Of a DNA stretch of 64,000 nt, positions 2,296 through 62,440 are shown in pieces. This stretch comes from Paenibacillus durus ATCC 35681 (GTDB taxonomy: Bacteria; Bacillota; Bacilli; Paenibacillales; Paenibacillaceae): positions 2,046,001-2,110,000 of the forward strand of contig NZ_CP011114.1 of assembly GCF_000993825.1 (NCBI RefSeq), in the 5' to 3' direction. The stretch's first letter is position 1, and every line of letters starts with the position of its first letter. The position numbers and the translations under genes were made by a program. Below the pieces are notes generated by a model that saw only the letters and a program-made list of their open reading frames with translations, ran no database searches and was not told where the DNA came from.

Positions 2296-3588
2296 GTGAA
2301 TGCCAAACGGCTAACAACACCAAAGGAAAACGTTCAACAACTCCAAATGAAACTAGGTCATGCGGCCAAGGAAAACAAGAAACGCAGATTTCACGCGCTG
2401 TATGACAAGGTATACCGGATGGACATCTTGCGGGAAGCATGGCGGAGAGTACGGGTCAACAAGGGAGCGGCAGGCGTGGACGGAGAGACGCTGGCGGACA
2501 TTGAAATGTACGGCGAGCAGCTATTCCTGCACGAATGTGAGCAGCTTTTGAAAGACGGCAAGTATCATCCTCAGCCAGTGCGGCGGCAGTACATCCCGAA
2601 GAAGGATGGCAAAATGAGGCCGCTTGGCATCCCCACTGTCCGGGATCGGGTCATACAAATGGCAGTGAAGCTGGTCATGGAACCCATCTTTGAAGCGGAT
2701 TTCCAAGAATCCTCTTTTGGATTTCGACCGAAGCGGAGCGCCAAGCAGGCGCTGGAACGCATTCGGAAAGCCTGTAACCGGAAAGGTAATTGGGTGGTCG
2801 ACGTCGACATCCAAGGCTACTTTGACAACATCAATCAGGAGAAGCTTATGAAGCTGGTAGAAATGCGAATCAGCGACAGACGTGTACTAAAACTGGTGAG
2901 GAAGTGGCTGAAGGCTGGGGTTCTGGAAGAAGGAAGCGTCCGGCGCTCAGACCTTGGAACACCGCAAGGCGGAGTCATTTCGCCGCTTCTAGCGAATATC
3001 TACCTGAATTACTTCGACAACCTGTGGGAGCGTCACGGCAGCGGGACTGGAGAGCTTACCCGGTATGCGGACGACCTGGTCGTAGTGTGCAAGACGAAGA
3101 AGGAAGCGGACCGTGCGTACGCTCTCATTCAAGCGATCATGGAGCGACTGGACCTGACCTTGCACAGGGCGAAGACACGGGTTGTCGGACTATGGACTGG
3201 CGAGGAAGGATTCGACTTCCTGGGGCTGCACCACCGAAAGACAAAGGCAGAGACCTCGCAAGGGAAGGTGTACTATACGACCCAGCAGTGGCTAACCCGG
3301 AAAGCGGAAGAACGCATACGGGAAGTAGTAAAGGAGCGGTTGGCTCCGCCGGCCATGCGTCATAAGTCGCTTAACGATCATGTGGCATGGCTAAATCCGA
3401 AGATACAGGGGTGGCGCAACTACTACTACACGCCTTACAGCCAGCAGAAGCTTGCGAAACTGGATTGGTACATTCTCCAGCGACTTGCCCGGTGGCATGC
3501 CAAGAAACGCCAGCGCAACAGGTGGATGAGTTTAGTACGAGAAGTGAACATCTTAGCTCAAACGATGGGACTTAAAACGCTCTTGTGA
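2296..3588 (+). CDS. ltrA: Group II intron-encoded reverse transcriptase/maturase
   Basis: I use GTG 2296, which has AAGGAGG nine bases upstream; the longer frame from 2179 has no such site and lies in intron RNA structure. The 430-residue product contains the reverse transcriptase blocks (IPKKDGKMRPLGIPTVRDR, SFGFRPKRSAKQAL, GTPQGGVISPLLANIYL), the YADD catalytic motif encoded near 3064-3075, and a C-terminal maturase (GIIM/domain X) region with GWRNYY. It ends at LAQTMGLKTLL with no zinc-finger HNH endonuclease, so mobility would rely on RNA reverse splicing without second-strand cleavage by this protein. The frame is intact and the protein looks functional. Confidence 0.93.
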   Translation: MNAKRLTTPKENVQQLQMKLGHAAKENKKRRFHALYDKVYRMDILREAWRRVRVNKGAAGVDGETLADIEMYGEQLFLHECEQLLKDGKYHPQPVRRQYIPKKDGKMRPLGIPTVRDRVIQMAVKLVMEPIFEADFQESSFGFRPKRSAKQALERIRKACNRKGNWVVDVDIQGYFDNINQEKLMKLVEMRISDRRVLKLVRKWLKAGVLEEGSVRRSDLGTPQGGVISPLLANIYLNYFDNLWERHGSGTGELTRYADDLVVVCKTKKEADRAYALIQAIMERLDLTLHRAKTRVVGLWTGEEGFDFLGLHHRKTKAETSQGKVYYTTQQWLTRKAEERIREVVKERLAPPAMRHKSLNDHVAWLNPKIQGWRNYYYTPYSQQKLAKLDWYILQRLARWHAKKRQRNRWMSLVREVNILAQTMGLKTLL

Positions 3589-3813: not shown

Positions 3814-5724
3814 ATGGGACAAGTTATGTTAGCTGAAGAAAAAGAAGACAATAAGCCTTTAAGCACGCTGTGGGAACAGCATGGAGGCTTGATTATCGCG
3901 GCGGTCTGCCTGCTGTTTATCGGGCTCGCCTGGGTCATGGGCAGGAATGATCAGGACATGTTGGAAATTACGTTTTTCATTCTTGCCTATCTTGTCGGGG
4001 GCTACCGGAAGGCATGGGAAGGTCTGGAAACTCTGTTTAAAGAAAAGGATCTGGATGTAGACCTGCTGATGGTTGTTGCGGCGGCGGGCGCTGCGGCGAT
4101 TGGTTACTGGCTGGACGGCGCGATGCTGATCTTTATCTTTTGTCTCAGCGGTGCGCTTGAGGATTACACGATGGAGAAGACGAATCAAGATATCGCCTCT
4201 ATTCTAAAGTACCGTCCGGAAGATGCGGTTCTCCTTAAAGATGGCGGCGAAGTCAAGGTCAGAGCGGCTCAGCTGCAAAAAGGCGACATCGTGCTCGTCA
4301 GACCGGGCGAACGCATTCCCTGCGACGGCCACATTCTCGAAGGGCATTCGGCAGTAGATCAATCCTCCATCACAGGTGAATCCATTCCCGTCGATCTTGC
4401 TGCCGGCGACAAGGTCTTCGCGGGAACGATTAACGGACAGGGGGCGCTGCGGATCTATACGGATAAGGGCGCGGAAGACACGCTGCTGGCCCGGATTATC
4501 CATCTAGTGCAGGAGGCCAAGGATGAGCTGCCTCCGAGTCAACTGTTCGTGGAGCGTTTTGAAGGCATCTACGCCAAAGTTGTGGTCGCGGCTGCCCTGC
4601 TGCTCATGGTTGCCCCGCCATTTCTCTTCGGCTGGTCCTGGGAAGCGACCGTCTATCGGGCGATGATCTTCCTTGTTGTCGCTTCGCCGTGCGCGCTCGT
4701 TTCCTCGATCATGCCCGCGATTCTGTCCGGCATCTCTAACGCCGCTAGAAAAGGCGTGCTGTTCAAAGGCGGAATCCATCTGGAGCAGATGGGTGAAGTA
4801 AGCGTCGTCGCCTTCGACAAGACGGGTACTTTAACCGAAGGCAAGCCGAAGCTGACCGACGTTCTGCCGTCGGGCGGCAGCAGTGAACAGGAGCTGCTTA
4901 CGCTCGCCGCTTCGCTGGAATATTTGTCGGAGCATCCGATCGCCAAAGCCATTGTCAATTTCGCCAAAGCCAGTGGTATTCAAATGGAGCCGGCGGCGGA
5001 CATGCAGGCTGTGCCCGGGATGGGCGTCAGCGGAACCGTAAGCGGCAGGAAATGCCGTATCGGTAAAAAAGAACTGCTGGCGGGCCTGGACATGGAAGAT
5101 GCCAAGCTGCAGGCGGCGGACATGCTAGAGGCGGAAGGGAAAACGGTGATCTTCGTCGAATCGGAAGGCGTTCTGATCGGCATGCTGGCGGTTCAAGACG
5201 TGATGCGCGCCGGCGTGCGGGAAGCCGTAATGAAGCTAAAGAGCATGAATAAAAAGGTTGTCATGCTTACCGGGGACGCTAAACTCACCGCCGAGGCAAT
5301 CGGCCGCGCGGCCGGCGTCGACGAAGTCTATGCCGAGCTGATGCCCGATCAGAAGCTTGCGTTGATCCGGCAGTTGACCGGGCAGTTCGGCAAGGTTGCC
5401 ATGGTCGGCGACGGCGTCAATGATGCGCCCGCGCTGGCGGCTTCCGCTGTCGGGATCGCCATGGGCGCCGCCGGGACGGACGTAGCGCTGGAAACAGCGA
5501 ATGTCGTGCTGATGAACGACGATATTTCCAAAATACCGTTCGCGATCTCACTTGGGCGGCGGACGCGGCGAGTCATCCGGCAGAACATTTCCTTTGCCCT
5601 GGCCGTCATCCTCATCCTGGTCGTATCCAACTTCTGGGGCGGAATCAATCTGCCGTCCGGCGTGGTCAGCCACGAAGGAAGCACGCTGGCCGTTATCTTA
5701 AGCGGGCTCCGGCTGCTCCGCTGA
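3814..5724 (+). CDS. P1B-4-type metal-exporting ATPase
   Basis: ATG 3814 is preferred (GGAGGGGG eleven bases upstream) over TTG 3793. The 636-residue protein has the order of a P1B ATPase: two N-terminal hydrophobic hairpins, the actuator motif ITGES (about residue 190), a membrane motif SPC (VVASPCALVSS, about 290), the phosphorylation site DKTGT (about 335), SEHPIAKAIV and GDGVNDAPAL. SPC instead of CPC, no N-terminal HMA metal-binding domain, and a C-terminal HEGST...GLRLL helix are features of subgroup P1B-4 (Co/Zn/Fe exporters; B. subtilis PfeT and mycobacterial CtpD are examples). It probably expels a divalent transition metal from the cytoplasm. The exact metal is not decided by sequence. 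Confidence 0.88.
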   Translation: MGQVMLAEEKEDNKPLSTLWEQHGGLIIAAVCLLFIGLAWVMGRNDQDMLEITFFILAYLVGGYRKAWEGLETLFKEKDLDVDLLMVVAAAGAAAIGYWLDGAMLIFIFCLSGALEDYTMEKTNQDIASILKYRPEDAVLLKDGGEVKVRAAQLQKGDIVLVRPGERIPCDGHILEGHSAVDQSSITGESIPVDLAAGDKVFAGTINGQGALRIYTDKGAEDTLLARIIHLVQEAKDELPPSQLFVERFEGIYAKVVVAAALLLMVAPPFLFGWSWEATVYRAMIFLVVASPCALVSSIMPAILSGISNAARKGVLFKGGIHLEQMGEVSVVAFDKTGTLTEGKPKLTDVLPSGGSSEQELLTLAASLEYLSEHPIAKAIVNFAKASGIQMEPAADMQAVPGMGVSGTVSGRKCRIGKKELLAGLDMEDAKLQAADMLEAEGKTVIFVESEGVLIGMLAVQDVMRAGVREAVMKLKSMNKKVVMLTGDAKLTAEAIGRAAGVDEVYAELMPDQKLALIRQLTGQFGKVAMVGDGVNDAPALAASAVGIAMGAAGTDVALETANVVLMNDDISKIPFAISLGRRTRRVIRQNISFALAVILILVVSNFWGGINLPSGVVSHEGSTLAVILSGLRLLR

Positions 5725-50935: not shown

Positions 50936-50990
50936 AGTGTAATCAAGCAAGATGTTCCCTTCGTGACGGCAATATGAACGGAATATGAAC
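50936..50990 (-). promoter_or_regulatory. Hydrolase 2 promoter with 11-bp direct repeat
   Basis: GTTCAT-N5-GTTCAT (50990-50974 on the minus strand) is again followed by exactly 32 bases and a TACACT -10 (50941-50936). ACATCTTG precedes the -10 at the same place in both promoters. Confidence 0.6.
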
Positions 50991-51084
50991 TAGCACAAAA
51001 AAGGAGGCGACGGGGTTGGCGCGATCGGTACGCCGGGCGCGTCGGTGGCCAGCTGCGCAACGTAGCTGCAGCTGGCTTGCCAGT

Positions 51085-51786
51085 CTATCCTGAAAAACTT
51101 TTTCAATTCGTCTTCCAAGCGGGTCATACGTGAACATTACTTCCTTGCCATCGGGCCGCACGACCTTGCTCATCATGCCGTTACCGTAGTATTTGTAGCG
51201 CCAATGCGTGCCGTCCGGCTCGATTTTCTCAACCAGATTGCCTTCTTCGTCATAGCTGTAGCTGGTTCCTTCGAACTCCAGAAGACGCCCGCCGGGACTG
51301 TATGTCCGGTCTTTTTTGTGGCCGCTGCTGTACAAGTTGCCCACATCATCGGCCATGCGGAATATCTTGTCGAAGGGATTCGTTTCCCCGATCAGATTGC
51401 CGAAATCATCATAGTTATACTGGGTTTTGTGCCCGGTCAGTTCGTTCACCATCGACTTCAGACGATAGTTGACGTTCCATTCGTACCTTCTCTTTCGGCT
51501 TTCTCGTCCGCCTGTCTTGACGCTGTGCTGTTCAGGGCGCCCGGCATCATCATAGTGCCACTCGCTGACCACATCGCCAGGTAGCAGCCGCTCGATTTCC
51601 TGTCCCGGCGCATTGTAGGTCATCTGCGCGGCCCATGGTGTGCTATTCGCCGTGGATGCGTCGCTACCTCCGTCCCGCTGGGCCTGCATTCGGCTTACTT
51701 GCCCCAATAGATCACGCTCCATGGTGATATGAGCGCCCAGGCTGCTGGTTATTTCCGTCCGGTTGCCAACTTCATCGTATTGGCTG
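51085..51786 (-). pseudogene. Orphan RHS-core fragment
   Basis: About 230 residues (QYDEVGNRTEITSSLGAH... to DPLGRRIEKV) closely repeat the segment of the large RHS protein encoded at about 53345-54035. Homology starts and ends abruptly: before it lies unrelated sequence, and after RIEKV the frame runs into about 50 unrelated residues and stops near 50943. There is no start codon of its own and no toxin domain. It is the sort of displaced RHS segment found downstream of RHS toxin genes. Confidence 0.8.
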
Positions 51787-51909
51787 TTTACATAAAGGTC
51801 TAAATTAGCATACCGAAGTCGAACATTATAGGGCATCACTAAGTTGTAGAAAAAAAGAACCCCCAAACGCATAGTACTCGTAGGGGGAGCTTTAACGATT
51901 TATATCGTT

Positions 51910-52494
51910 TTATTTCTTTCTTAACGGATCAACTATAAAATTGTATTCATCAATACTCTTCGTAAAAATAAATGTTGGCAACTCCGAACCTCTTTGAAAG
52001 TTCAAAATATATCCATAGTCAGCTTCTGCGCCCTTATTAGGCTCACAATAACCTGTAATGCTTACTCCATAATTTCCCATTGGGATTTTTGTATAATCGT
52101 TTGAGGTAGATCGTTCGTCAAGATAGTTTTCATAATTCACATAAAATTCCTCTTCCCAATCCATTATAGCTTCAATATCAGATATAATTACTACCTCACT
52201 AGATACCCTTAAGGGAAATGTTTGTGTTTCAAACAATTTCCATTCCATTGGGATGGGAACATCACTTTTGTTTTCAAGATTTATAAAAATGTTATAATCC
52301 AATTCAGGAATAGGGTACATAGGAATAATAGCTCCTCGTTTAATGACCTCTTCCCCAACTTCTTCATTTTCATTAAAGAATGTTATCAAATCTGAAGTAG
52401 CTATTTTTTTTTCATTTAGATAATCAGTCAATGTTACTGGATCAAAAATCACAATTCCCGGAAAATCTAATGTTATTCTAAGCTTACTTCCCAT
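51910..52494 (-). CDS. Candidate immunity protein of the RHS toxin
   Basis: A 194-residue protein starting 11 bases before the RHS gene's stop, so translation is coupled. It is acidic (many Asp and Glu) with no signal peptide or membrane helix, and is AT-rich compared with the RHS gene. Position directly after a polymorphic-toxin C-terminal domain is the usual place for the cognate immunity gene. I do not recognise a named immunity family. Expected role: bind and block the GHH nuclease in the cytoplasm. Confidence 0.6.
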   Translation of the reverse strand: MGSKLRITLDFPGIVIFDPVTLTDYLNEKKIATSDLITFFNENEEVGEEVIKRGAIIPMYPIPELDYNIFINLENKSDVPIPMEWKLFETQTFPLRVSSEVVIISDIEAIMDWEEEFYVNYENYLDERSTSNDYTKIPMGNYGVSITGYCEPNKGAEADYGYILNFQRGSELPTFIFTKSIDEYNFIVDPLRKK

Positions 52495-55400
52495 TACATA
52501 ACTCCCCTAATTTTAGTTTTTGTTTTCTATCCCATTCTATCGATTTGTTTAAAGCTCCTTGAATGGTAACATTTTTGGCTAATATCTCTCCTGTATTTGG
52601 AATTTTCATATAGCCTCTTTGTTTAAATGGTGAGTAAGCCTTGTTTAATTTTTCAATAAGTTCTGTTGCAGTTCCTTTGAATGATCCTTTAAATGGAACG
52701 CCTTCCTTTCTTACTGCTTCATGAAGTTCTTTATGCAACATATCGGAACCCTCTAATTCATAAGGGTACCATGAAGGGGAATCATGCGTTGTGCCTAAGA
52801 GTGGGAAACCGTGTTTATTAGCATGAACCCTCGGCATTGCGTGATGCCCCATTCCTGAAGACTTAAGCAACTTCCAAAAAGGCATCAAACCAAATGGATC
52901 AAACAACTTTAACGGATCATGCACATACCCATACAACGTTGGGTTATTCCCGGCTAACCCTATCGGGTCCTGCTGGATATACATCCCTTCATGCGGCGAA
53001 TAGTACCGGAAACGGTTATAGTACAGCCCTGTTTCTTCATCCTCGTACTGACCCGGATACCGGAACGGACATGCGCCTCGCGTTCCTTGAAGGTCAAAAT
53101 TCTGAACCTTCCCATAGATGTCCAACTCGCACGCCCACACTCGTTCGCCTGTCTCGTTATACATCTCCACAGGCGTACCGATATGATCCGTAACGATGCT
53201 ATACTGACCTTCGGCTGTCAGTTTCGCTGCCGGGCTAAACGTTCCGTCTTCAAACACCCATGTAGTGAGTGATTGCGGATCTTCATTCCACTCATGCAGG
53301 ATCGTATTCCCATCCCACACAAAGCTTGTCTTGACCCCATCATACACTTTTTCGATCCGCCTTCCAAGCGGGTCATAGGTGAACGTCACTTCCTTGTCCT
53401 CCGGGCGTACCACTTTGCTCATCATGCCGTTGCCGTAATATTCGTAGCGCCAATGCGTGCCGTCCGGTTCTATTTTCTCAATCAGATTGCCTTCTTCGTC
53501 ATAGCTGTAATGTGTTCCTTCGAATTCCAGCAGACGCCCGCCGGGACCGTATGTCCGGTCTGTTTTGTGGCCGCTGCTGTACAAGTTGCCCACATCATCG
53601 GCCATGCGGAATATCTTGTCGAAGGGATTCGTTGCCCCGATCAGATTGCCGAAATCATCATAGTTGTACTGGATTTTGTGCCCGGTCAGTTCATTCACCA
53701 TCGACTTCAGACGGTAGTTGGCGTTCCATCCGTACCTTCTCTTTCGGCTTTCCCGTACACCTGTCTTCACGCTATGCTGTTCAGGCCGTCCGGCTTCATC
53801 ATACCGCCATTCACTGATCACACCGCCAGGCAGCAGCCGTTCGATTTCCTGTCCCAACGTATTGTATGTCATCTGCGCGGCCCAAGGCGCAGCAGTCGCT
53901 GGGGATGCGTCGCTGCCGCCGTCCCGCTGGGCCTGCATCCGGCTTACTTGCCCCAATAGATCACGCTCCATGGTGATATGAGCACCCAGGCTGCTGCTTA
54001 CTACCGTCCGGTTACCCAGCTCATCATACTGGCTGGCTATCCAATACTGATCGCGCCATTCCTTGGTCACACGCCCTACTCGGTCACGCTCGAATTTGAG
54101 GGTGGCGTAAGGGTTGGCGGTCTCCATTAGTTCCCCGATGCGGTTATACCCAAACGTCTCCACCAGGCCGTCACTGTATTCCGCTTTGGTCACGCGACCC
54201 ATGAGGTCATGGCTGAAGTCCGTCCATCTGCCGCCCGGTCGTTCCACCTTCTGCAATAGGCCGCCTGGACTTCGTACATATTGTCTTTGGATTCCGTCGA
54301 ATCCCGTTTCTCGAACAATGTTTCCATTCGCATCATGCTCCAGCACATAGCGCTCGCCTCGTTCATTGATCACTTCGGTCAGTTCTTCTTCCTTGTTATA
54401 GGCAAGCTCGATGCGTTTGCCCTTTTCTTCGCGCCACGTCAATTTCCCAAGCGGAGTATAGCCAAATGCCACGCGGTGCTGGTTGTCTTCCGCCAGAACC
54501 ACTTCCTCATAGGCATTGTATTGCAGCCGAAGCACATTGCCGTCCGGCAGTTCGGCGTGCACGACCCGCCCCAGTGAATCGTACACAAACGTCTGCTTCG
54601 CTCCGAGCGGATTCATCTCCTGCACACATTCCCCCCGGTGGTTGTACGTCCACTTCCCGCTTGTATCATCCGGCAAGGTCACTTGAACCAGGTTGTCTTG
54701 CTCGTCGTAGGCGAGCTTCGTTATCGCGCCCTGCGGGCTTTTCACTTCGCTGATCCGATGACGCTCGTCATAGGCTAGGAGGGTCGCCGTTTGGTCGGCC
54801 TCCGTTATTTCCCTAACCCGGCCCTGTTCGTCATATTGCCAGGTTCGGATGCCGCCCTCGGGATCGGTCACTTGCGCCAGCCGGCCGGCTGTGTCATAGG
54901 TAAAGCTCCATACGCCTCCATCCGGCTGTATGTCCTCAACCAGCCGTCCGAACTCGTCATGCCCATACCGGGATACCCGGCCTTCCGCATCCGTTTCGCT
55001 CACCAGTTCTCCCAGTTCGCTGTACGCATATTCCACGACACCACCCAGCGGATCGACGATCCGGGTACAATAATACTCGGGATTATAATCATAACGCGTC
55101 GCATGCCCTTGGCTGTTCGTCGTTTCATTCCATCCGTCATGGTAGGCGATTCGTCCTTCCAAGAGTCCGTCATCCCCATACGTATGAACGCAGCGCGCTC
55201 CTGTTGTCGGGCTGTCATAGCGCCAGTGGAAGCTGTACCCGTTGCGGTCTTTCTTCCTTAACATCAGGTGCTGGTCGTAATACATCTCGGTTGTCTGTCC
55301 CAGCGCATCCGTCACCGCAACAAGATCGCCGACTTCGTTGTACCGGTACTGCACCAATACCTCGCGCTGTTCACTGGAGGCGTTGTTTGAATGGGGGTGG

Positions 55401-58141
55401 TACACATAGATGACTTTCGTGATCCGTCCGGCTTCATCGGTCTTGATGTCCAGCACCCGGCCTACGCTGTCGGTCACCTGCTGCAAGTAGCCGCGCGCAT
55501 CATAGGTCAAGACGATCCGACGGCAAAACTCATCCTCGATGCGAGTCAGACGATACGGCTTGGCTGCTTCCTCCTCCGGTGAAGCCTGATCGGTATTGCC
55601 TTCCTGCTGAAGCGGTTTGCTTATGCGATACCCAAGGCCGCGTATCTCCTGCGACTCCTCTGCTGTCCTGCGCTGGACCTCTGCCGTCTTCACCGCTCCC
55701 GACGGGCGATTCGCTGTGATCGCAGACTCGAAGACATACGTCAGGCGGCTTTCTTCCTCCACCATCGCATACCCGGTGCCTTCGCGGCGCAAGACGAGCC
55801 GTTCTTTCGGGTTCCGCGTTTCCATCAGGCCCCGGTGCAAGCGTTCAAATCCCACTGGTCGCCCATCCGCTAACAGCACGCCGATGCAGTCGTCCAGTAC
55901 TTCCAGCCGCATATCGAAGCTGTGATGCACGCCATGTCCAAGCCATCCTTGATGGCGGCTGTCACTAATCCAGCGGCGCTCCCAACGGAGCGGCAAGGGA
56001 CTCGGGAACTCGAAGTCGGTCGCTTCGCTCATCATCCGCCCGGTAATCAGGTCTACCGGCTCGAAGCCCCACTTGCAGAACTTGTCCTTCAGCCCTTTGG
56101 TGCATTGGAATTTACTTAATACTTTGTGGTTAAAAGCCGTCAGCGCTTTCTTCGCGCCGGATTTCTCCAATGCCTTGTCGAGTAGCGCCTTGCTCTTCTC
56201 CGCGAGCTTCTGCTCCATCGCCGCCAGCTTCTTGGCCAGCAGGTCCTTCAAGGCATCGGCCTGGCCCTTCAGCTTCCGCGCTCCGGTCAGCACTTTGTTC
56301 AGTGAGCTTCTGCCGAACTGGACAGCCCTTTTTGCTGCGGCCCGGCCGATTTTCCCGGCCATTTTCCCCGCAAGCTTGCCGCCTGCTTTCACCGCCGCCT
56401 TAGCCGCTACCTTCGCCACGCCCTTCGCCGCCAGCTTCGCTGCGCCAAATGCCGCGCCCCCGAAAGGCAGCATCGTGCCGATGGATAACGCCGCGCCGAA
56501 AAAGTCGCCCCGGCAGAGGCTCACGACCGCACTTGCGGCTCCCGCGATGACGCCAAGTCCTGGCACCATGCTTAGCACATCCAGCGCGGTGCCCAGCTTC
56601 TCCAGGAAGCCGTCCCGCTCCTTGTCGCTTTTGGCTTGCTCCGCCTCCGGATTGCTTAAGGGCTCGAAGGATTGCCGTTCACTTCCGATCATCGTGACCT
56701 CCGGCCCGGTCACATCGGTCGTATCGTTGAGGATCAGGCTGCTTTGCCCGCCGGCGATCCACAGCTCTTCTTCCGCTTCCGCCCGAAACCTTTTCAGCTC
56801 ACTAAAGGCCATCTCCTGTTCCGCCGTCAGCACGATGTCTTTGTCGCTTTGCAGCGTGATGCCGCCTTCTTCCCCGATGGTGACGAATAGTGCACCTTCC
56901 TTCGCCGTAAACGAAATATCTGTCGTTCCAAGCTCAAATTCCTTCCCCCCGCCGGTAGCAAACGATTTGACAGTGGAGTCAGCCATTTTCTTGTTTGCTT
57001 TCTCCGCCGCCTCCCCTTGCGGGGAGAATGGGGTCCGCACCGACTGGATCAGCATCGCGTCCGCTTCCTCATGGCTCGGGAAATACAGCTTGATCCTGGA
57101 GCCAATCGGCGGCATGGCGTGAAAGATGTGGCTCGCTGGGGAGGAATACGGGAACCAGACCGCTTCCTGCTCCGGCTGGGCTTCGTCGATATCCAGATGC
57201 ACCTTCGCTTTCTTGACTCCGATGGCGAGAATGCGCCCTTCCATGGCCAATCCTGCCAAGTTTTCGTTGTAGCGCTTATTCTGACGAAGTCCTGCGGGCG
57301 TCGTACACAAATACGTAAACTCCAACATCCCTTTGTTCAGCTGGCCCAAGGTCCCTGCGACCACAAACCGGCGTCCGGCCGCTTCCACTTCGGACCCAAG
57401 CCCGAGCCACTCATCCATTCGCACCATAAAGCGGGTAAAGTCCTGCTCCTGGAAGCCCTCGGCCCCCGTTTGCACAGCGGTCAGGAATGACTCTACGTCA
57501 TGCTCAATTTGGTACAATCCTTCTTCCAGCTTCACATGCTGCTTTACCGTCGGTGTGCCGATCCATACCCGCGGCTCATGGGTGCTGACATCCGACGTCA
57601 CCACGGCCCCCGCATGGGAAGCAACCCGCTGAATAAAGTCCCAGTCGGTCTCTTCGTACTGGAGCAGCAGATCGCCAATCGAAGCTCCGTGCCCAAAGGC
57701 ATCCGTTTCCAGAAAATCACCGCCCGGATACGCATGGATCACTTCTTTCAGCACGTCGGTATACGCCATATCCGCATGCTGGAAGGAACGGCTTATCCGC
57801 TTGACATCCATCTGATAGGAATGCGAGATGATGTCCACCCGGACAGTCCATACATCGTGGATGCGATCCGCCTGAATGTCGTGCAGCTGGCCTAAAAACA
57901 ACGGGTAGTCAGCCTGCCCTTCCCGAACCGCATACAGCCCGGCCTGGTCGCGGCTGCTGCCTTGCCGCACCAGCTCATGGCTGTCCTCCTCGCTCATGAC
58001 GCCCTGAAGCTGCAAGACTGCATGCATGCCGGGGAATCGCTTCATCTTCACTTCCTCAAGCCGCAGCTTTCCATACGGCCATTTGAGCGCGATGTCCTGC
58101 ACGGTCAAGCCTGACAGGCGCTCCCATTCATTTCCTAACAT
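52484..58141 (-). CDS. VgrG-like/RHS fusion toxin with GHH C-terminal domain
   Basis: An 1885-residue protein (ATG after GAGGGGG). Residues 1 to about 480 resemble the VgrG/Pvc8 spike (LLLQYEETDWDFIQRVASH; ILAIGVKKAKVHLDID; WFPYSSP). About 520-660 is Ala/Gly/Lys-rich and hydrophobic (GLGVIAGAASAVVSL, GAAFGAAKLAAKG), a candidate translocation or anchor segment. From about 690 (GFEPVDLITGRMMSEATDF) run many YD/RHS repeats that form a toxin-enclosing shell, ending with the RHS core DPIGLAGN...DPFGL near 1750. The last 130 residues are the toxin: GMGHHAMPRVHANKHG and later LHKELHEAV, matching the GHH class of HNH/Endo VII-like nucleases. Spike and toxin are thus in one chain. Confidence 0.87.
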   Translation of the reverse strand: MLGNEWERLSGLTVQDIALKWPYGKLRLEEVKMKRFPGMHAVLQLQGVMSEEDSHELVRQGSSRDQAGLYAVREGQADYPLFLGQLHDIQADRIHDVWTVRVDIISHSYQMDVKRISRSFQHADMAYTDVLKEVIHAYPGGDFLETDAFGHGASIGDLLLQYEETDWDFIQRVASHAGAVVTSDVSTHEPRVWIGTPTVKQHVKLEEGLYQIEHDVESFLTAVQTGAEGFQEQDFTRFMVRMDEWLGLGSEVEAAGRRFVVAGTLGQLNKGMLEFTYLCTTPAGLRQNKRYNENLAGLAMEGRILAIGVKKAKVHLDIDEAQPEQEAVWFPYSSPASHIFHAMPPIGSRIKLYFPSHEEADAMLIQSVRTPFSPQGEAAEKANKKMADSTVKSFATGGGKEFELGTTDISFTAKEGALFVTIGEEGGITLQSDKDIVLTAEQEMAFSELKRFRAEAEEELWIAGGQSSLILNDTTDVTGPEVTMIGSERQSFEPLSNPEAEQAKSDKERDGFLEKLGTALDVLSMVPGLGVIAGAASAVVSLCRGDFFGAALSIGTMLPFGGAAFGAAKLAAKGVAKVAAKAAVKAGGKLAGKMAGKIGRAAAKRAVQFGRSSLNKVLTGARKLKGQADALKDLLAKKLAAMEQKLAEKSKALLDKALEKSGAKKALTAFNHKVLSKFQCTKGLKDKFCKWGFEPVDLITGRMMSEATDFEFPSPLPLRWERRWISDSRHQGWLGHGVHHSFDMRLEVLDDCIGVLLADGRPVGFERLHRGLMETRNPKERLVLRREGTGYAMVEEESRLTYVFESAITANRPSGAVKTAEVQRRTAEESQEIRGLGYRISKPLQQEGNTDQASPEEEAAKPYRLTRIEDEFCRRIVLTYDARGYLQQVTDSVGRVLDIKTDEAGRITKVIYVYHPHSNNASSEQREVLVQYRYNEVGDLVAVTDALGQTTEMYYDQHLMLRKKDRNGYSFHWRYDSPTTGARCVHTYGDDGLLEGRIAYHDGWNETTNSQGHATRYDYNPEYYCTRIVDPLGGVVEYAYSELGELVSETDAEGRVSRYGHDEFGRLVEDIQPDGGVWSFTYDTAGRLAQVTDPEGGIRTWQYDEQGRVREITEADQTATLLAYDERHRISEVKSPQGAITKLAYDEQDNLVQVTLPDDTSGKWTYNHRGECVQEMNPLGAKQTFVYDSLGRVVHAELPDGNVLRLQYNAYEEVVLAEDNQHRVAFGYTPLGKLTWREEKGKRIELAYNKEEELTEVINERGERYVLEHDANGNIVRETGFDGIQRQYVRSPGGLLQKVERPGGRWTDFSHDLMGRVTKAEYSDGLVETFGYNRIGELMETANPYATLKFERDRVGRVTKEWRDQYWIASQYDELGNRTVVSSSLGAHITMERDLLGQVSRMQAQRDGGSDASPATAAPWAAQMTYNTLGQEIERLLPGGVISEWRYDEAGRPEQHSVKTGVRESRKRRYGWNANYRLKSMVNELTGHKIQYNYDDFGNLIGATNPFDKIFRMADDVGNLYSSGHKTDRTYGPGGRLLEFEGTHYSYDEEGNLIEKIEPDGTHWRYEYYGNGMMSKVVRPEDKEVTFTYDPLGRRIEKVYDGVKTSFVWDGNTILHEWNEDPQSLTTWVFEDGTFSPAAKLTAEGQYSIVTDHIGTPVEMYNETGERVWACELDIYGKVQNFDLQGTRGACPFRYPGQYEDEETGLYYNRFRYYSPHEGMYIQQDPIGLAGNNPTLYGYVHDPLKLFDPFGLMPFWKLLKSSGMGHHAMPRVHANKHGFPLLGTTHDSPSWYPYELEGSDMLHKELHEAVRKEGVPFKGSFKGTATELIEKLNKAYSPFKQRGYMKIPNTGEILAKNVTIQGALNKSIEWDRKQKLKLGELCNGK

Positions 58142-58170
58142 GTCTTTTCCCCCTCGGTCGCCGGATGATG

Positions 58171-58572
58171 CTACGCTTTTTTCTGCCCGTCATCGGCGAT
58201 GTAGATGACTCCCTCCGCATGCTTCGTGCACATGATATACGAATCGCTGGTTAACACGGCTTTTCCGTCAATGAGCACATCCGCTTTCCCGTTCATCCAC
58301 TCCATGTTCACTTGCGGCTCGCACGGCTTATCCAGCGCTTCGCACACGCCGAAGGTGTTCGGGATGTTGACGACGGCTTTGCTGTCCGCCACGTTCATCA
58401 GCGGCTGCCCCTGAATATAGGCCCCATGACAGGTCGGCAAATTGAGCAGATTGGGATTGCTGCCACACTGGCACTCCAATATCGCTCCCCTCACCACATA
58501 GCTGGCTTCCGCTCCCGCCGCCCCCTCCACGCTGGGAGGGCTAGGTTTTCTGAACGCTATAAAGCTTGCCAT
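58171..58572 (-). CDS. DUF4280 PAAR-like tip protein
   Basis: A 133-residue protein (AAGGAGGG before ATG). SYVVRGAILECQCGSNPNLLNL opens the PAAR-like DUF4280 domain; further Cys occur in TCHGAY, FGVCEALDKPCEP and IMCTKHAEG, which may bind a metal at the tip. In contractile injection systems PAAR proteins sharpen the VgrG spike and carry effectors. It lies 29 bases before the fusion toxin gene, so it probably caps that spike. Confidence 0.82.
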   Translation of the reverse strand: MASFIAFRKPSPPSVEGAAGAEASYVVRGAILECQCGSNPNLLNLPTCHGAYIQGQPLMNVADSKAVVNIPNTFGVCEALDKPCEPQVNMEWMNGKADVLIDGKAVLTSDSYIMCTKHAEGVIYIADDGQKKA

Positions 58573-58641
58573 TTGTTATCCCTCCTTCATGCTTTCTTCG
58601 CAAGCGTTGCCGGTTTTTCGTCTTTTGCTTCGCGCTTTGCT

Positions 58642-59133
58642 CTAGGCAAGCTCTACCGGGGTGAAGTGAAGCCCTGTAAATCCCCGTCTTTGCAAACTTT
58701 CCGCTACATCCAGACGGATGATCAGGATGTCTTCCTTCACTCCCGCCACGCGAAAGATGCGCTCCCGCCTCACTTTTGTTTCCGCCAGCACCAGCGGTCT
58801 CAAGGCTCCGCTTGCTTCCACTTGCGTTCGTTCGGATAAGCAGTCCGTTTCGTCCGGCTCCATGAACCAGTAGATGTCCTGACGCTGGGTGCTGCGTTCT
58901 GTTAGGACGGCGGAATAAAATCGCAGGAAACGATCGTACTTCTCCAGCAAGCCTTTCATCCGATCCGATACGAGCCAACGGGGATGGTCGATGAAGTCGA
59001 GATAGACCGGTTGTTCCCCGTCTTCCTTCACAAATACAATATTTCGCTCGTCAATCTCCATGTCCCGGCTGACTTGTTCCAAACGCAAACCATCTAAAAA
59101 CCGCTTGTCCTGCTGCAATCGAAAGTAATACAC
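58642..59133 (-). CDS. Imm11-like/DUF1629-type protein
   Basis: GTG 59133 with AAGGAG upstream is chosen over the frame start at 59196, which lies in the previous gene. The 163-residue protein begins MYYFRLQQDKRFLDGL and contains LVSDRMKGLLEKYD and a late RVAGVKEDILIIRLDVAESLQRRGFTGLHF. The pattern fits the Imm11 (DUF1629) group found beside polymorphic toxins and VgrG spikes. It could be an extra immunity factor or an adaptor for loading. An overlapping frame on the same strand (58541-58978) is a shadow. Confidence 0.55.
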   Translation of the reverse strand: MYYFRLQQDKRFLDGLRLEQVSRDMEIDERNIVFVKEDGEQPVYLDFIDHPRWLVSDRMKGLLEKYDRFLRFYSAVLTERSTQRQDIYWFMEPDETDCLSERTQVEASGALRPLVLAETKVRRERIFRVAGVKEDILIIRLDVAESLQRRGFTGLHFTPVELA

Positions 59134-59161
59134 CTGCCTGCTCCTTCCCCCTGTACGTGGT

Positions 59162-60292
59162 CTATGGGCGAACTTCCGCCAATTGCCCCGTCTCATCCTC
59201 TTCCATCCAGATGACCTGCCGTTTCTGTTCTTCGCTTAATGCAAATTGCGCGGCATCCTGTAAGATGATCTTGGCTCCCTGCAGATTAGCGCCCTGAAAA
59301 TCGGCGCCTTCCAGATCCGCAAACAGCAAGTTCGCCCCTTGCAAATTCGCATGCGTAAAATTCACGCCGAAAGTCCCCAGGATTTGCCCTTCCAGGATCA
59401 GCGGCTGTCCGCCTGCCGTATGCCAGAAATTCGCTCCTTGCAGGTCGCAATGGCTGAAATTGGCATCATAGAGCACGCTTTGGCTGAGATCGACGCCCTG
59501 CATGTTGCTGCGGGAAAAATCGACCCCTGCGCATATGCTTTTGTTGAGGCGGCTTCTCGAAAGATTAGCGTCTGTTACGTGACTATAGCCCAAGTCGGCG
59601 CTTTCGTAGTTGCCGCCGCTCAAATCCAGGTCTCGCCAGTCCTGGTAGCGATTTAGCGAACCGTCCCGCTGCTCCAGCCGGGCACGGATGGCCGCAGCGT
59701 CTTTGTCTCTCCGTTCTTCAACCCAGACGTCCTCGCTTAGATCCATATATTCGCCTGCGCGAATGCGGAAAATGTCAGCGCGCCGAAGCTGTTGAAACTC
59801 CGGAAGTTCCACGATACGCGGAGCCGCCGCACGAACGAGGCTGATCACATAGTGTCCGGCTATGGCCATGTCTTCCCGCCAGACACGATCGGTTTCCAGC
59901 GGCAAGATCTCGCTTCCATAGCTTTTGCGCGACGCCTCGATAGCGTTTCGGTAGGTTTCCAGGTGGGCGTACAGCCATGGCGCCTCGTGCAGTTCGATGC
60001 AGGCCTCCCGGTCCAGATACCAGCTGTCGTCATACGCTTCCAGGCTGCACATGAGTTTTCCCTGCCCTAGCCAGGAACGCAAATACGACACGTGCATGTA
60101 GGCGATGGGCCGCTTATGTCCGGCTTCTTGCATCGCGTGAATGCGAAGACACAACTTCCGAAAGGGTTCGATCCACTCCTTGGTATACGCATGAGCCTGC
60201 GCGTGAACCTCTGCGCCGATTTGCCGGATCATCGTTTCCCTCTGCTGCGAGACATCTTGCGTAAGCCATAGTTTCAACGCGTCCTGCTGCAA
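59162..60292 (-). CDS. Pentapeptide-repeat protein of the injection locus
   Basis: A 376-residue protein starting at TTG 60292 behind AAGGAGAG. The first 215 residues are helical and unrecognised. From about 220 onward come A(D/N)LxX repeats: DLSGGNYESADLGYSHV, ANLSRSRLNKS, GVDFSRSNMQGVDLSQS, ANFSHCDLQGANF, ANLQGANLLFADLEGADF. They would form a right-handed beta helix. Pentapeptide domains are found in type VI-related effectors and adaptors. Its place between spike and tip genes suggests a role in assembly or cargo binding. Confidence 0.8.
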   Translation of the reverse strand: MQQDALKLWLTQDVSQQRETMIRQIGAEVHAQAHAYTKEWIEPFRKLCLRIHAMQEAGHKRPIAYMHVSYLRSWLGQGKLMCSLEAYDDSWYLDREACIELHEAPWLYAHLETYRNAIEASRKSYGSEILPLETDRVWREDMAIAGHYVISLVRAAAPRIVELPEFQQLRRADIFRIRAGEYMDLSEDVWVEERRDKDAAAIRARLEQRDGSLNRYQDWRDLDLSGGNYESADLGYSHVTDANLSRSRLNKSICAGVDFSRSNMQGVDLSQSVLYDANFSHCDLQGANFWHTAGGQPLILEGQILGTFGVNFTHANLQGANLLFADLEGADFQGANLQGAKIILQDAAQFALSEEQKRQVIWMEEDETGQLAEVRP

Positions 60293-60305
60293 TGGTTTTC
60301 TCTCC

Positions 60306-61796
60306 TTAATTGTTATGGACTTGCGTTCCCTTCACATCGACGCGGTCTTCGAGCACCACGGAGCTGCCCTTGCAAGTCATCTCTAATTTTTCCTGGGCGG
60401 TGATCGTGATTTTTTTCGAGGCTAACATCACTTCTTCCGTCGCTTTCACCGTCACGTTTTTGCTGCTGACAATGGAAATGCCGTCTGCATCGCTGAGCAT
60501 AATGGATACGCCATCGCCCGTGATGAGGATATGATCGGGAGCGAGCACGATCATCTTGCCGTTCTTGGTCTTGATGGTTTTGATGCTCGGATCTTCCATC
60601 GGATCGCTTCCGCCGCCGCTTGCTGATGCCGTGCCGCCGCTCGATGCTCCTGCCATGCCGACGCTTTGCCCTCCGCTTGCCGATGGCGGTTCCGCTTTCG
60701 GTTTCGGCACGGAGCTGATTGCAATGACATCCTCTTCTTTATGCGTTGGAAAATAGACGCGCACATCGTCGCCGATCTCCGGCATGCAATACCAGCCCGC
60801 ATTGTCTTCCGAAGCGTAGATGGTCGAGTACGGAAACCAGAACGCTGTGCCCGCGTCTTGCTCGGGATCGATGTTCAGATGCGCTTGAATCCGGTCTTTG
60901 GCTACCGCAATCACTTTGCCCTGCAGCGAGACCCCGACGATGGCCATGTTATATTGCTTTCGCCGGCTCAAGCCCAGCCGCGTGCCTAAGAAGTACGTAT
61001 GCTTTAACAGCCCGTCCTTCATATCCGTTCTGACTTCGCTTACGACAAGCTGCTGGTTGTCGAACGCAACCTCCATGCCGATGTCGAATACTTGATCGGT
61101 TTCCACTTCATAGAAGATGCAATCGCTCTCGCTCAATTCCGGCACTTGTCCCTGCACCGACAGCTGATACAGCTCCATCCGTTTATGTATCCGGTAATGG
61201 TATGCGTTAACTTCCCCCTTAAAACCAGGCTCCGGAATGCCAAAGTGCACCTTCGGGGAATCAAAGCCGATCGCCGGCACAAGTCCGGTGTTAAAGTGGG
61301 ATGCCAACCGTTTCAATAGTTCCCAGTCGGTCTCCCGGTACTGTAAAATCATGCGGCCAATAGCCGCGCCATTCGAAGCTTCATCCATAACGTCCGCGCC
61401 GTCGTAATCCTGTACGATCTGATCCACCAACTGCGCATACGCAAGTCCCGTATCTTGAAATGTACGTTCCTTTCGCGTCACATCGAACTGATACGATAGC
61501 GATACCGCCTCCATTTCGATATGGTATACGTCCCGAACGTGATAGATTTGTATATTCGTGACCATGCCTTGAAACAGGGTTCTCTTCCCGCCTTGTTCCA
61601 GCCTTTGCACAACGGCCACATTCATTCGGGCATAATCCATACCGGCATAACCGGCCTTCTGTTCTTCCGGCACGATGCCCTTCAGACGAAGCGTAGCGTG
61701 CTCGTTGATTTGCTGTACAATCGTTAGCTCCCGGATCGATTCTAACGCAAACGGCGTGACTTCAATGTCCTGATAAGTCGCATAAGATCGTTCCAT
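60306..61796 (-). CDS. VgrG-like spike protein
   Basis: The start at 61796 (GAGGGGG upstream) gives 496 residues. It shares layout with the first 480 residues of the RHS fusion: RMILQYRETDWELLKRLASHFNTG (about 150), GKVIAVAKDRIQAHLNIDPEQDAGTAFWFPYSTIYAS (about 310-345) and VYFPTHKEEDVIAISSV. It ends in a repetitive beta segment (VTVKATEEVMLASKKITITAQEKLEM) expected to form the triple-stranded needle. A Gly/Ser-rich linker lies at about 400-425. It likely forms a trimeric spike without its own toxin. It overlaps the upstream gene by one to three bases. Confidence 0.82.
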   Translation of the reverse strand: MERSYATYQDIEVTPFALESIRELTIVQQINEHATLRLKGIVPEEQKAGYAGMDYARMNVAVVQRLEQGGKRTLFQGMVTNIQIYHVRDVYHIEMEAVSLSYQFDVTRKERTFQDTGLAYAQLVDQIVQDYDGADVMDEASNGAAIGRMILQYRETDWELLKRLASHFNTGLVPAIGFDSPKVHFGIPEPGFKGEVNAYHYRIHKRMELYQLSVQGQVPELSESDCIFYEVETDQVFDIGMEVAFDNQQLVVSEVRTDMKDGLLKHTYFLGTRLGLSRRKQYNMAIVGVSLQGKVIAVAKDRIQAHLNIDPEQDAGTAFWFPYSTIYASEDNAGWYCMPEIGDDVRVYFPTHKEEDVIAISSVPKPKAEPPSASGGQSVGMAGASSGGTASASGGGSDPMEDPSIKTIKTKNGKMIVLAPDHILITGDGVSIMLSDADGISIVSSKNVTVKATEEVMLASKKITITAQEKLEMTCKGSSVVLEDRVDVKGTQVHNN

Positions 61797-62434
61797 TATG
61801 CATCCCCCTCTTCCCGTTCCATCGGGTTGATTTGCAGGGAATCCATGATGCCAAGCGCAATCGGACGCCACTGCTCCTGATATCGCTCCATGCAATTGAG
61901 ACCGAAGAAGAGCCCTTTCCCCTCCAGTTCTATGAAAAATATGCCATTATACATCACACCGTCCAGCACAGGCACGGTAAATTCATAAAAGCCCATCTTG
62001 CGGCCTCCGACCTCGCGCACCCCTTCTCCCAACCACTTCGCATTCGGCTGCATCCGTTTGATCAGGAAGCTGAGGTCTTGCACAAACTGCTCCATTTCAT
62101 TGTTAACCATTCTGTTGTTTGTGGGATTTACGGTTAGATTAATCTCCAGCGTTTCATCGGTGTAGATGATTTTGGGACGCCGTTCGGCGGGATATTTGAT
62201 CCTGGCATACTCCTCCGGCATAGGCTCGAAGAAATCCGGCACAAACATGAAAACCTGATTCGGCACTACCTCCGTCCTTTGAAACGAAATGATCTCATCG
62301 CCCAGTGCAAGTTCCCCTGCTTGAATCGCTTGGCTGACGTTTTCGGGGGATAATGCGGCTTTCAGCACCTCTTGCTTCTCCATCTGTTCCTGCTTGCCAA
62401 TCAGCTCAAGCCATTGTTCGTCCATATGTTCCAT
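61796..62434 (-). CDS. DUF1795/EagR-like chaperone candidate
   Basis: ATG 62434 is preferred because AGAGGG lies six bases upstream; ATG 62440 is too close to it. The 212-residue protein has a C-terminal domain with QVFMFVPDFFEPMPEEYARIKYPAERRPKIIYT and NLTVNPTNNRM, then GRKMGFYEFTVPVLDGVMYNGIFFIELEGKGLFF. The layout resembles DcrB/DUF1795 proteins, which in Gram-negative type VI systems (Eag chaperones) shield the hydrophobic N-terminal segments of RHS effectors. Being first in an operon that encodes such an effector supports that role; sequence evidence alone is moderate. Confidence 0.5.
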   Translation of the reverse strand: MEHMDEQWLELIGKQEQMEKQEVLKAALSPENVSQAIQAGELALGDEIISFQRTEVVPNQVFMFVPDFFEPMPEEYARIKYPAERRPKIIYTDETLEINLTVNPTNNRMVNNEMEQFVQDLSFLIKRMQPNAKWLGEGVREVGGRKMGFYEFTVPVLDGVMYNGIFFIELEGKGLFFGLNCMERYQEQWRPIALGIMDSLQINPMEREEGDA

Positions 62435-62440
62435 AGGCAT

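Follow-up and report, generated by a model that had tools for sequence, protein, structure and literature searches.

We analyzed a stretch of 64,000 nucleotides from Paenibacillus durus ATCC 35681 (contig NZ_CP011114.1, positions 2,046,001 to 2,110,000; called the window here, with features numbered from its first letter), which contains a locus with a VgrG-type spike, a PAAR-like tip, and a protein in which a second VgrG part is fused to an RHS shell. An earlier note had read these genes as a toxin delivery locus in a monoderm-type genome and had found no sheath, tube, or baseplate genes nearby. The spike, tip, and RHS toxin locus in its monoderm-type setting stands, and the window is indeed free of such machine genes, but the genome has a predicted sheath and a predicted tube elsewhere, in an unlinked cluster, so that a reading of the locus as a sheath-less oddity is not supported. 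The genome search for sheath and tube genes that the note had proposed was run and gave a sheath candidate of 722 amino acids (aa) and a tube candidate of 141 aa at about 3.65 Mb; a sheath-less spike was therefore rejected.

The spike and toxin module of the window

All seven open reading frames (ORFs) of the locus were found on the minus strand, in the order given in the note, between 51910 and 62440. The first gene encodes a DUF1795/DcrB-like chaperone candidate (214 aa, 61796..62440, ORF scan), for which the Pfam and NCBIfam scans gave no match. A profile of 14 such sequences (A11) aligned nearly end to end with DcrB (13cz, E 0.018) and a DUF1795 protein (6e8a, E 0.034) from the PDB; both matches are sub-significant, and two further PDB matches, one of them nominally better (7.9e-6), cover 23 and 44 positions only. 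In the type VI secretion systems (T6SS) of Gram-negative bacteria, chaperones of the DUF1795 type attach to hydrophobic segments in RHS/PAAR effectors. DUF1795 adaptors are also mentioned in the part of a 2021 survey that is cited here (mSystems, PMC8651086).

The stand-alone spike gene (VgrG1, 60306..61796) has an open frame up to 61895 (529 aa), and its likely start is an internal ATG at 61796, where start codon and the stop codon of the 214-aa gene overlap by one base. The Pfam matches of VgrG1 to Phage_GPD (1.6e-6) and Phage_base_V stayed below the cut-off, as did Phage_GPD in the fusion protein (7.3e-6) and the DUF2345 and NCBIfam VgrG models with the VgrG parts of the window proteins. 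A profile built from 12 copies of the stand-alone VgrG (A2), searched against the PDB, found a T6SS VgrG (8gra, E 1.7e-15) and in total 14 sequences at E<=0.01, including the spikes Afp8, Pvc8, and Anabaena All3320 of extracellular contractile injection systems (eCIS). As the A2 profile matches a solved VgrG and the fusion protein is homologous to VgrG1 over about residues 1–480 (56702..58141; phmmer 1.3e-61), the N-terminus of the fusion is VgrG-type, and the family membership on which the note had staked its reading held. A PHROGs search returned unnamed families only.

Between the two VgrG genes lie genes for a pentapeptide-repeat protein with a conserved N-terminal part (59162..60292, PF00805 2e-24), an Imm11-like module component (58642..59196, PF07791 2.7e-7), and the DUF4280 PAAR-like tip (58171..58572, PF14107 4.3e-25), all three above the respective cut-off. 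The fusion protein (1885 aa, 52484..58141) continues after its VgrG part, here VgrG2, with a hydrophobic segment (residues 522–540, 56522..56578, Kyte-Doolittle window mean 1.99), an RHS shell (about residues 694–1752, 52886..56062, PF05593 2.5e-72, PF20148 2e-21), which ends in an RHS core domain (TIGR03696 2.7e-19 in the NCBIfam scan), and a C-terminal toxin candidate (52487..52852). Judged by its sequence, the protein can be classed as an RHS polymorphic toxin, because its RHS/YD repeats and RHS core domain are followed by a distinct C-terminus. The GHH motif of the proposed toxin is present at residues 1765–1767; a Pfam scan of the last 138 residues gave no family, so that no Tox-GHH family match stands behind it and the GHH label is a motif label. 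The end of the fusion gene overlaps the last gene (51910..52494), whose 194-aa product is an immunity candidate by position only and gave no match in the Pfam and NCBIfam scans. Next to it, an orphan RHS fragment (50943..51872, minus strand; RHS_repeat 3.1e-23) has 89.3% DNA identity to the main RHS gene over 692 bp and is likely a displaced older RHS end.

Repeated modules in the genome and in relatives

In the genome (5.58 Mb, one contig), DUF4280 was matched 11 times, in 10 genes, and the window's spike 33 times. All 10 DUF4280 genes are preceded by pentapeptide and Imm11-like genes and followed by a second VgrG-type gene, and the stand-alone VgrG and DUF1795-like genes come first where they are present; across genomes, the chaperone candidate is the conserved first gene of many modules. 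Thirty DUF4280 ORFs were listed, and three of them (L053, L058, and L068) were set aside as they had no module genes, which left 27 modules, 10 from the P. durus genome and 17 from 16 other genomes. The loci of the relatives were taken from listed DUF4280 and sheath matches and are a non-random choice, gene picking loses some overlapping ORFs, and copies of the module in which no DUF4280 ORF was picked, such as those in L037, L063, L070, and L078, are left uncounted.

As pentapeptide and Imm11-like genes occur in 27 of 27 modules, the arrangement goes beyond chance. The Imm11-like gene directly precedes the tip gene in 24 modules and lies one gene further away in two (L032 and L060), and in one (L071) the Imm11-like and pentapeptide parts form a single ORF. 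Since the Imm11-like protein is constant whatever the toxin, and since its gene adjoins the sheath gene in the distant genome G468, we regard it as a part of the machine or of its loading; it is probably an adaptor or structural protein. The Imm11-like gene of the earlier note is thus there, although probably not as a toxin-specific immunity gene.

In 26 of the 27 modules, the gene right after the tip gene is of the VgrG type, and the fusion of spike and toxin is the usual plan of this second VgrG. The VgrG-RHS fusion that had seemed so striking is thus special in its cargo rather than in its plan: RHS cargo on VgrG2 is uncommon (3/27) and not unique, as it also occurs in the distant genome G525 and in another genus (G006). 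Other cargo in the P. durus genome includes EndoU, NlpC/P60, HNH, and ADP-ribosyltransferase domains (four of seven VgrG2-type proteins scanned), and the roughly ten spike-and-toxin sets look interchangeable on one syringe. The module at 3.645 Mb (L035, 7311-11063) looks nearly identical to those at 5.47-5.50 Mb (L037/L038), with agreement in the first residues.

The core cluster and its co-occurrence with the modules

The core cluster at about 3.65 Mb is conserved, unlinked to the window module, and holds the predicted sheath and tube. It lies upstream of the 3.645 Mb module, and modules in other genera have the same gene set on their upstream side. The cluster encodes a Ser/Thr kinase (PF00069 1.2e-37), a VWA protein with an N-terminal hydrophobic stretch (1.4e-20), the one-chain 722-aa sheath candidate, the 141-aa Hcp-like tube candidate (open frame 181 aa), a J-domain protein (3.2e-26), an FHA protein (1.6e-6), a PP2C protein (3.6e-17), a 601-aa protein with TPR matches below the cut-off and cross-matches to the PP2C protein, and, thereafter, proteins of 435, 231, 883, and 266 aa. 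The parts that characterize a contractile injection system (CIS) are represented as follows: the sheath by the 722-aa protein, according to its predicted fold; the Hcp/gp19-type inner tube by the predicted fold of the 141-aa protein, whose TssD/Hcp match (1e-3) is below the cut-off; and the VgrG spike with a PAAR-type tip by the A2 profile and Pfam DUF4280. In several sources, the sheath is named 'transcriptional regulator' and the tube 'membrane-associated protease 1'. As the sheath label misleads and the protein has no Pfam family, label-based surveys would miss the sheath. One relative (G525, locus L094) has two tube-type ORFs in one cluster (2923-3225 and 4976-5407), one of them short (100 aa).

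The 883-aa family conserves Hsp70/actin-type ATPase motifs (84 sequences). At E<=1, its profile had 31 PDB matches (best E 0.0053), 30 of them with the name Hsp70 or DnaK and one called only 'hydrolase'. A distant member exceeds the cut-off for SrfB-type proteins (PF07520, 28.8 vs 27.1 bits); the 883-aa gene differs from these in standing within a sheath-tube-kinase cluster. Because a J-domain gene is found in the same cluster, it is plausible that the two products form a chaperone pair that handles sheath or effector, and this pair might substitute for ClpV in recycling. PDB profile searches with the 266-, 231-, and 435-aa proteins gave no credible match, and no credible Pfam family emerged for the 435-aa and 266-aa families; by their position only, the three proteins are baseplate candidates.

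DUF4280 genes and PF04984 sheaths occur together in 88 of 90 DUF4280-positive genomes (odds ratio 19). However, 35 of the 90 genomes are without VgrG1, and 34 of these 35 have a PF04984 sheath. The loci examined in some of them hold Afp-like genes near the DUF4280 gene, with a PF04984 sheath and a gp19 tube (L064) or Baseplate_J (L054 and L058), which indicates that DUF4280 alone mixes two systems; the pairing of DUF4280 with PF04984 sheaths is partly due to this second class in other genera. At L058, a MORN-repeat ORF lies beside the tip gene. As the second class inflates the PF04984 link, we re-tested the association with VgrG1 (E<=1e-30) and the new sheath (E<=1e-3) in 245 Paenibacillaceae genomes of >=95% completeness. 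The new sheath was present in 53 genomes and VgrG1 in 55: both in 53, VgrG1 only in two, the sheath only in none, and neither in 190. The two exceptions look decayed. One (G125, locus L183) retains kinase, VWA, 601-aa, 435-aa, and 883-aa genes together with modules, and the sheath, tube, J-domain, FHA, and PP2C genes were not found between these remaining core genes; the other (G228) gave no 883-aa match and has pieces of VgrG close to its DUF4280 gene.

Among 299 evenly sampled Bacillota genomes, seven from five families have the new sheath. Scanning GTDB contigs yielded 324 stretches that encode the sheath; the 80 that were kept come from Paenibacillus, Brevibacillus, Cohnella, Aneurinibacillus, Lysinibacillus, Sporosarcina, and Solibacillus and show core genes around the sheath. 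This view has flanks of 10 kb, sometimes shortened by contig ends, so that the 266-aa gene, at the edge of the flank, is visible in 24 of the 80 stretches, and module genes lie beyond the flank in all 80. A divergent sheath branch includes metagenome genomes of Selenomonadaceae and Peptostreptococcaceae. In G468, the gene order is Imm11-like, sheath, tube, VgrG, 435, 231, 883, and 266, with a DUF4280 protein just upstream. This protein (595 aa, L091 12592-14379) combines the tip with an AHH nuclease-type stretch (PF14412, 22.2 bits vs a cut-off of 22.3).

A proposed contractile machine and its alternatives

What was computed here is the anatomy of module and cluster, the identity of VgrG, the predicted folds of sheath and tube, and the co-occurrence. 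In our view, the window locus very probably belongs to a set of ten spike-tip-effector modules by which a hitherto unrecognized CIS, with its core at about 3.65 Mb, is armed, and we infer that module and core assemble jointly, and likewise the baseplate roles, firing, anchoring, and the activities of toxin and immunity protein. Several observations weigh against this reading. The sheath model had a single Foldseek match at E<=1e-3, with a TM-score of 0.32 by query length, and its residues 203–249, 280–287, and 392–412 are below a predicted local distance difference test (pLDDT) value of 50; many chains among the structure matches belong to tail, neck, or baseplate structures, and the entry titles are silent on which protein is concerned. 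The sheath sequence profile found no sheath in the PDB (one spurious match, E 0.012), the tube profile found nothing, and the single sheath and tube sequences as queries gave unrelated weak matches only. In the core, no baseplate protein was recognized by the profile and Pfam searches of the 266-, 231-, and 435-aa proteins, the scanned cluster proteins contained no recognized membrane anchor complex, and no ClpV/Clp family was found among the core proteins scanned (no genome-wide ClpV search was made). In the module beside the core, VgrG1 is split over two overlapping frames and VgrG2 has only 245 aa, while a 469-aa VgrG1 in one frame and a 909-aa VgrG2 exist in other copies. Furthermore, the Fisher p for the co-occurrence of sheath and VgrG1 (6.5e-52) ignores shared ancestry, and PF04984 sheaths also associate with VgrG1, although less specifically than the new sheath.

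In the mechanism that we propose, the DUF1795-like chaperone would shield the hydrophobic segment of the VgrG-RHS protein, and VgrG1 and VgrG2, perhaps as a mixed trimer with one RHS cage, would form the spike together with the DUF4280 tip and the pentapeptide and Imm11-like proteins. This spike would cap the tube inside the sheath, and phosphorylation involving the kinase, FHA, and PP2C proteins may gate assembly or firing. Contraction of the sheath would then push tube, spike, and RHS cage into a neighboring cell, where the C-terminal toxin could be freed, and the 194-aa product of the last gene would protect kin. Tentatively, and somewhat on the doubtful side, we picture a T6SS-like, cell-anchored, contact-dependent Gram-positive weapon that is fired through its own wall under kinase/FHA/phosphatase control, in which the Hsp70-like/J-domain pair recycles the sheath in place of ClpV and mixed VgrG1/VgrG2 spikes carry one RHS toxin cage. 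If true, contact weapons of the RHS type would also be found in Paenibacillus, Brevibacillus, Lysinibacillus, and their relatives. With a named sheath gene, a named tube gene, and a core cluster, the question of the machine is directly testable.

To our knowledge, Firmicutes VgrG/DUF4280 toxin genes have had no known machine, and our literature search, which covered neither preprints nor most subscription journals, found no paper that names it. The cited part of the 2021 survey (PMC8651086) describes PAAR_H2 (DUF4280) beside Phage_GPD VgrG genes in Firmicutes, the same pair as the DUF4280 tip and VgrG of the window, and could only speculate on the machine; it names none there, whereas we have a candidate machine, with sheath and tube, that is tied to the modules by co-occurrence. 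The system resembles the T6SS in its predicted Hcp-fold tube, VgrG, PAAR-type tip, toxin-fused VgrG, and RHS cargo, in its DUF1795-like chaperone candidate and kinase/PP2C/FHA regulators, and in that one structural cluster goes with several effector islands located elsewhere. Orphan vgrG/effector islands are known from the T6SS. An orphan-vgrG module is described in PMC10671463. In contrast to the T6SS, the Paenibacillus system has a one-chain sheath, a monoderm-type host, and an Hsp70-like ATPase with a J-domain protein where the cluster proteins scanned hold no ClpV family. VipB/TssC (PF05943) and IcmF-related/TssM (PF06761) had zero matches in the genome, with positive E. coli controls, in a search that did not extend to TssJ and TssL; as these two defining families are absent, filing the system as a T6SS was rejected.

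The core cluster could also be a known eCIS of the Afp/PVC type that releases free particles, and it does share a one-chain sheath fold, tube, and spike with Afp, PVC, and Streptomyces CIS, and DUF4280-type tips also occur near Afp-like loci of relatives. However, it differs in its core genes, its regulators, and the sequence family of its sheath, its effectors are built onto a second VgrG, and the new sheath is without a Pfam family. No PF04984 sheath, gp19 tube, Baseplate_J, or AAA ATPase was found in the core proteins scanned, whereas the Afp-like control loci (L064, L054, and L058) gave such families, and the Afp-like loci are the separate class described above. Filing the system as an Afp-type eCIS was rejected, and it is hardly credible that the core is such an eCIS, although the proposed machine may itself be released as free particles. 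Given the absence of PF05943 and PF06761 from the genome and of these eCIS families from the core proteins scanned, we place the system in a new class within the CIS. A very unlikely scenario is that no contractile delivery takes place and the VgrG-RHS proteins exit by type VII secretion or lysis, with the VgrG part as a leftover. RHS toxins that lack a spike are known from Gram-positive bacteria, but the spike, the tip, and the other module genes remain linked in distant families, genomes with modules also have the predicted sheath, and core and module form one locus in several genera.

It is highly improbable, too, that the modules borrow a resident phage-like tail, either from the PBSX-like locus (4.19 Mb) or from the prophage with terminase and portal genes (3.73 Mb). 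These are the only two PF04984 loci of the genome, so that this family finds both tail sheaths, and a PF04984 sheath of some kind is present in 54 of the 55 genomes with VgrG1 (both in 54, VgrG1 only in one, PF04984 only in 142, neither in 48; p 3e-5). Nevertheless, of the 196 genomes that carry a PF04984 sheath, 142 are without VgrG1, and one genome (G151) combines VgrG1 with the new sheath but lacks a PF04984 sheath. A Baseplate_J gene belongs to the 4.19 Mb locus itself, and a look at the regions around the two tail elements (4.175-4.214 and 3.712-3.748 Mb) revealed no module gene. Because of its weaker association with VgrG1, delivery by a PF04984 tail locus or prophage was rejected. As a side observation, the tail locus at 4.185-4.196 Mb (L023 and L024) combines a PBSX-like contractile tail and a Baseplate_J gene with lysis-type ORFs, with no capsid genes seen by eye in the stretch, and is possibly a phage-tail-like bacteriocin.

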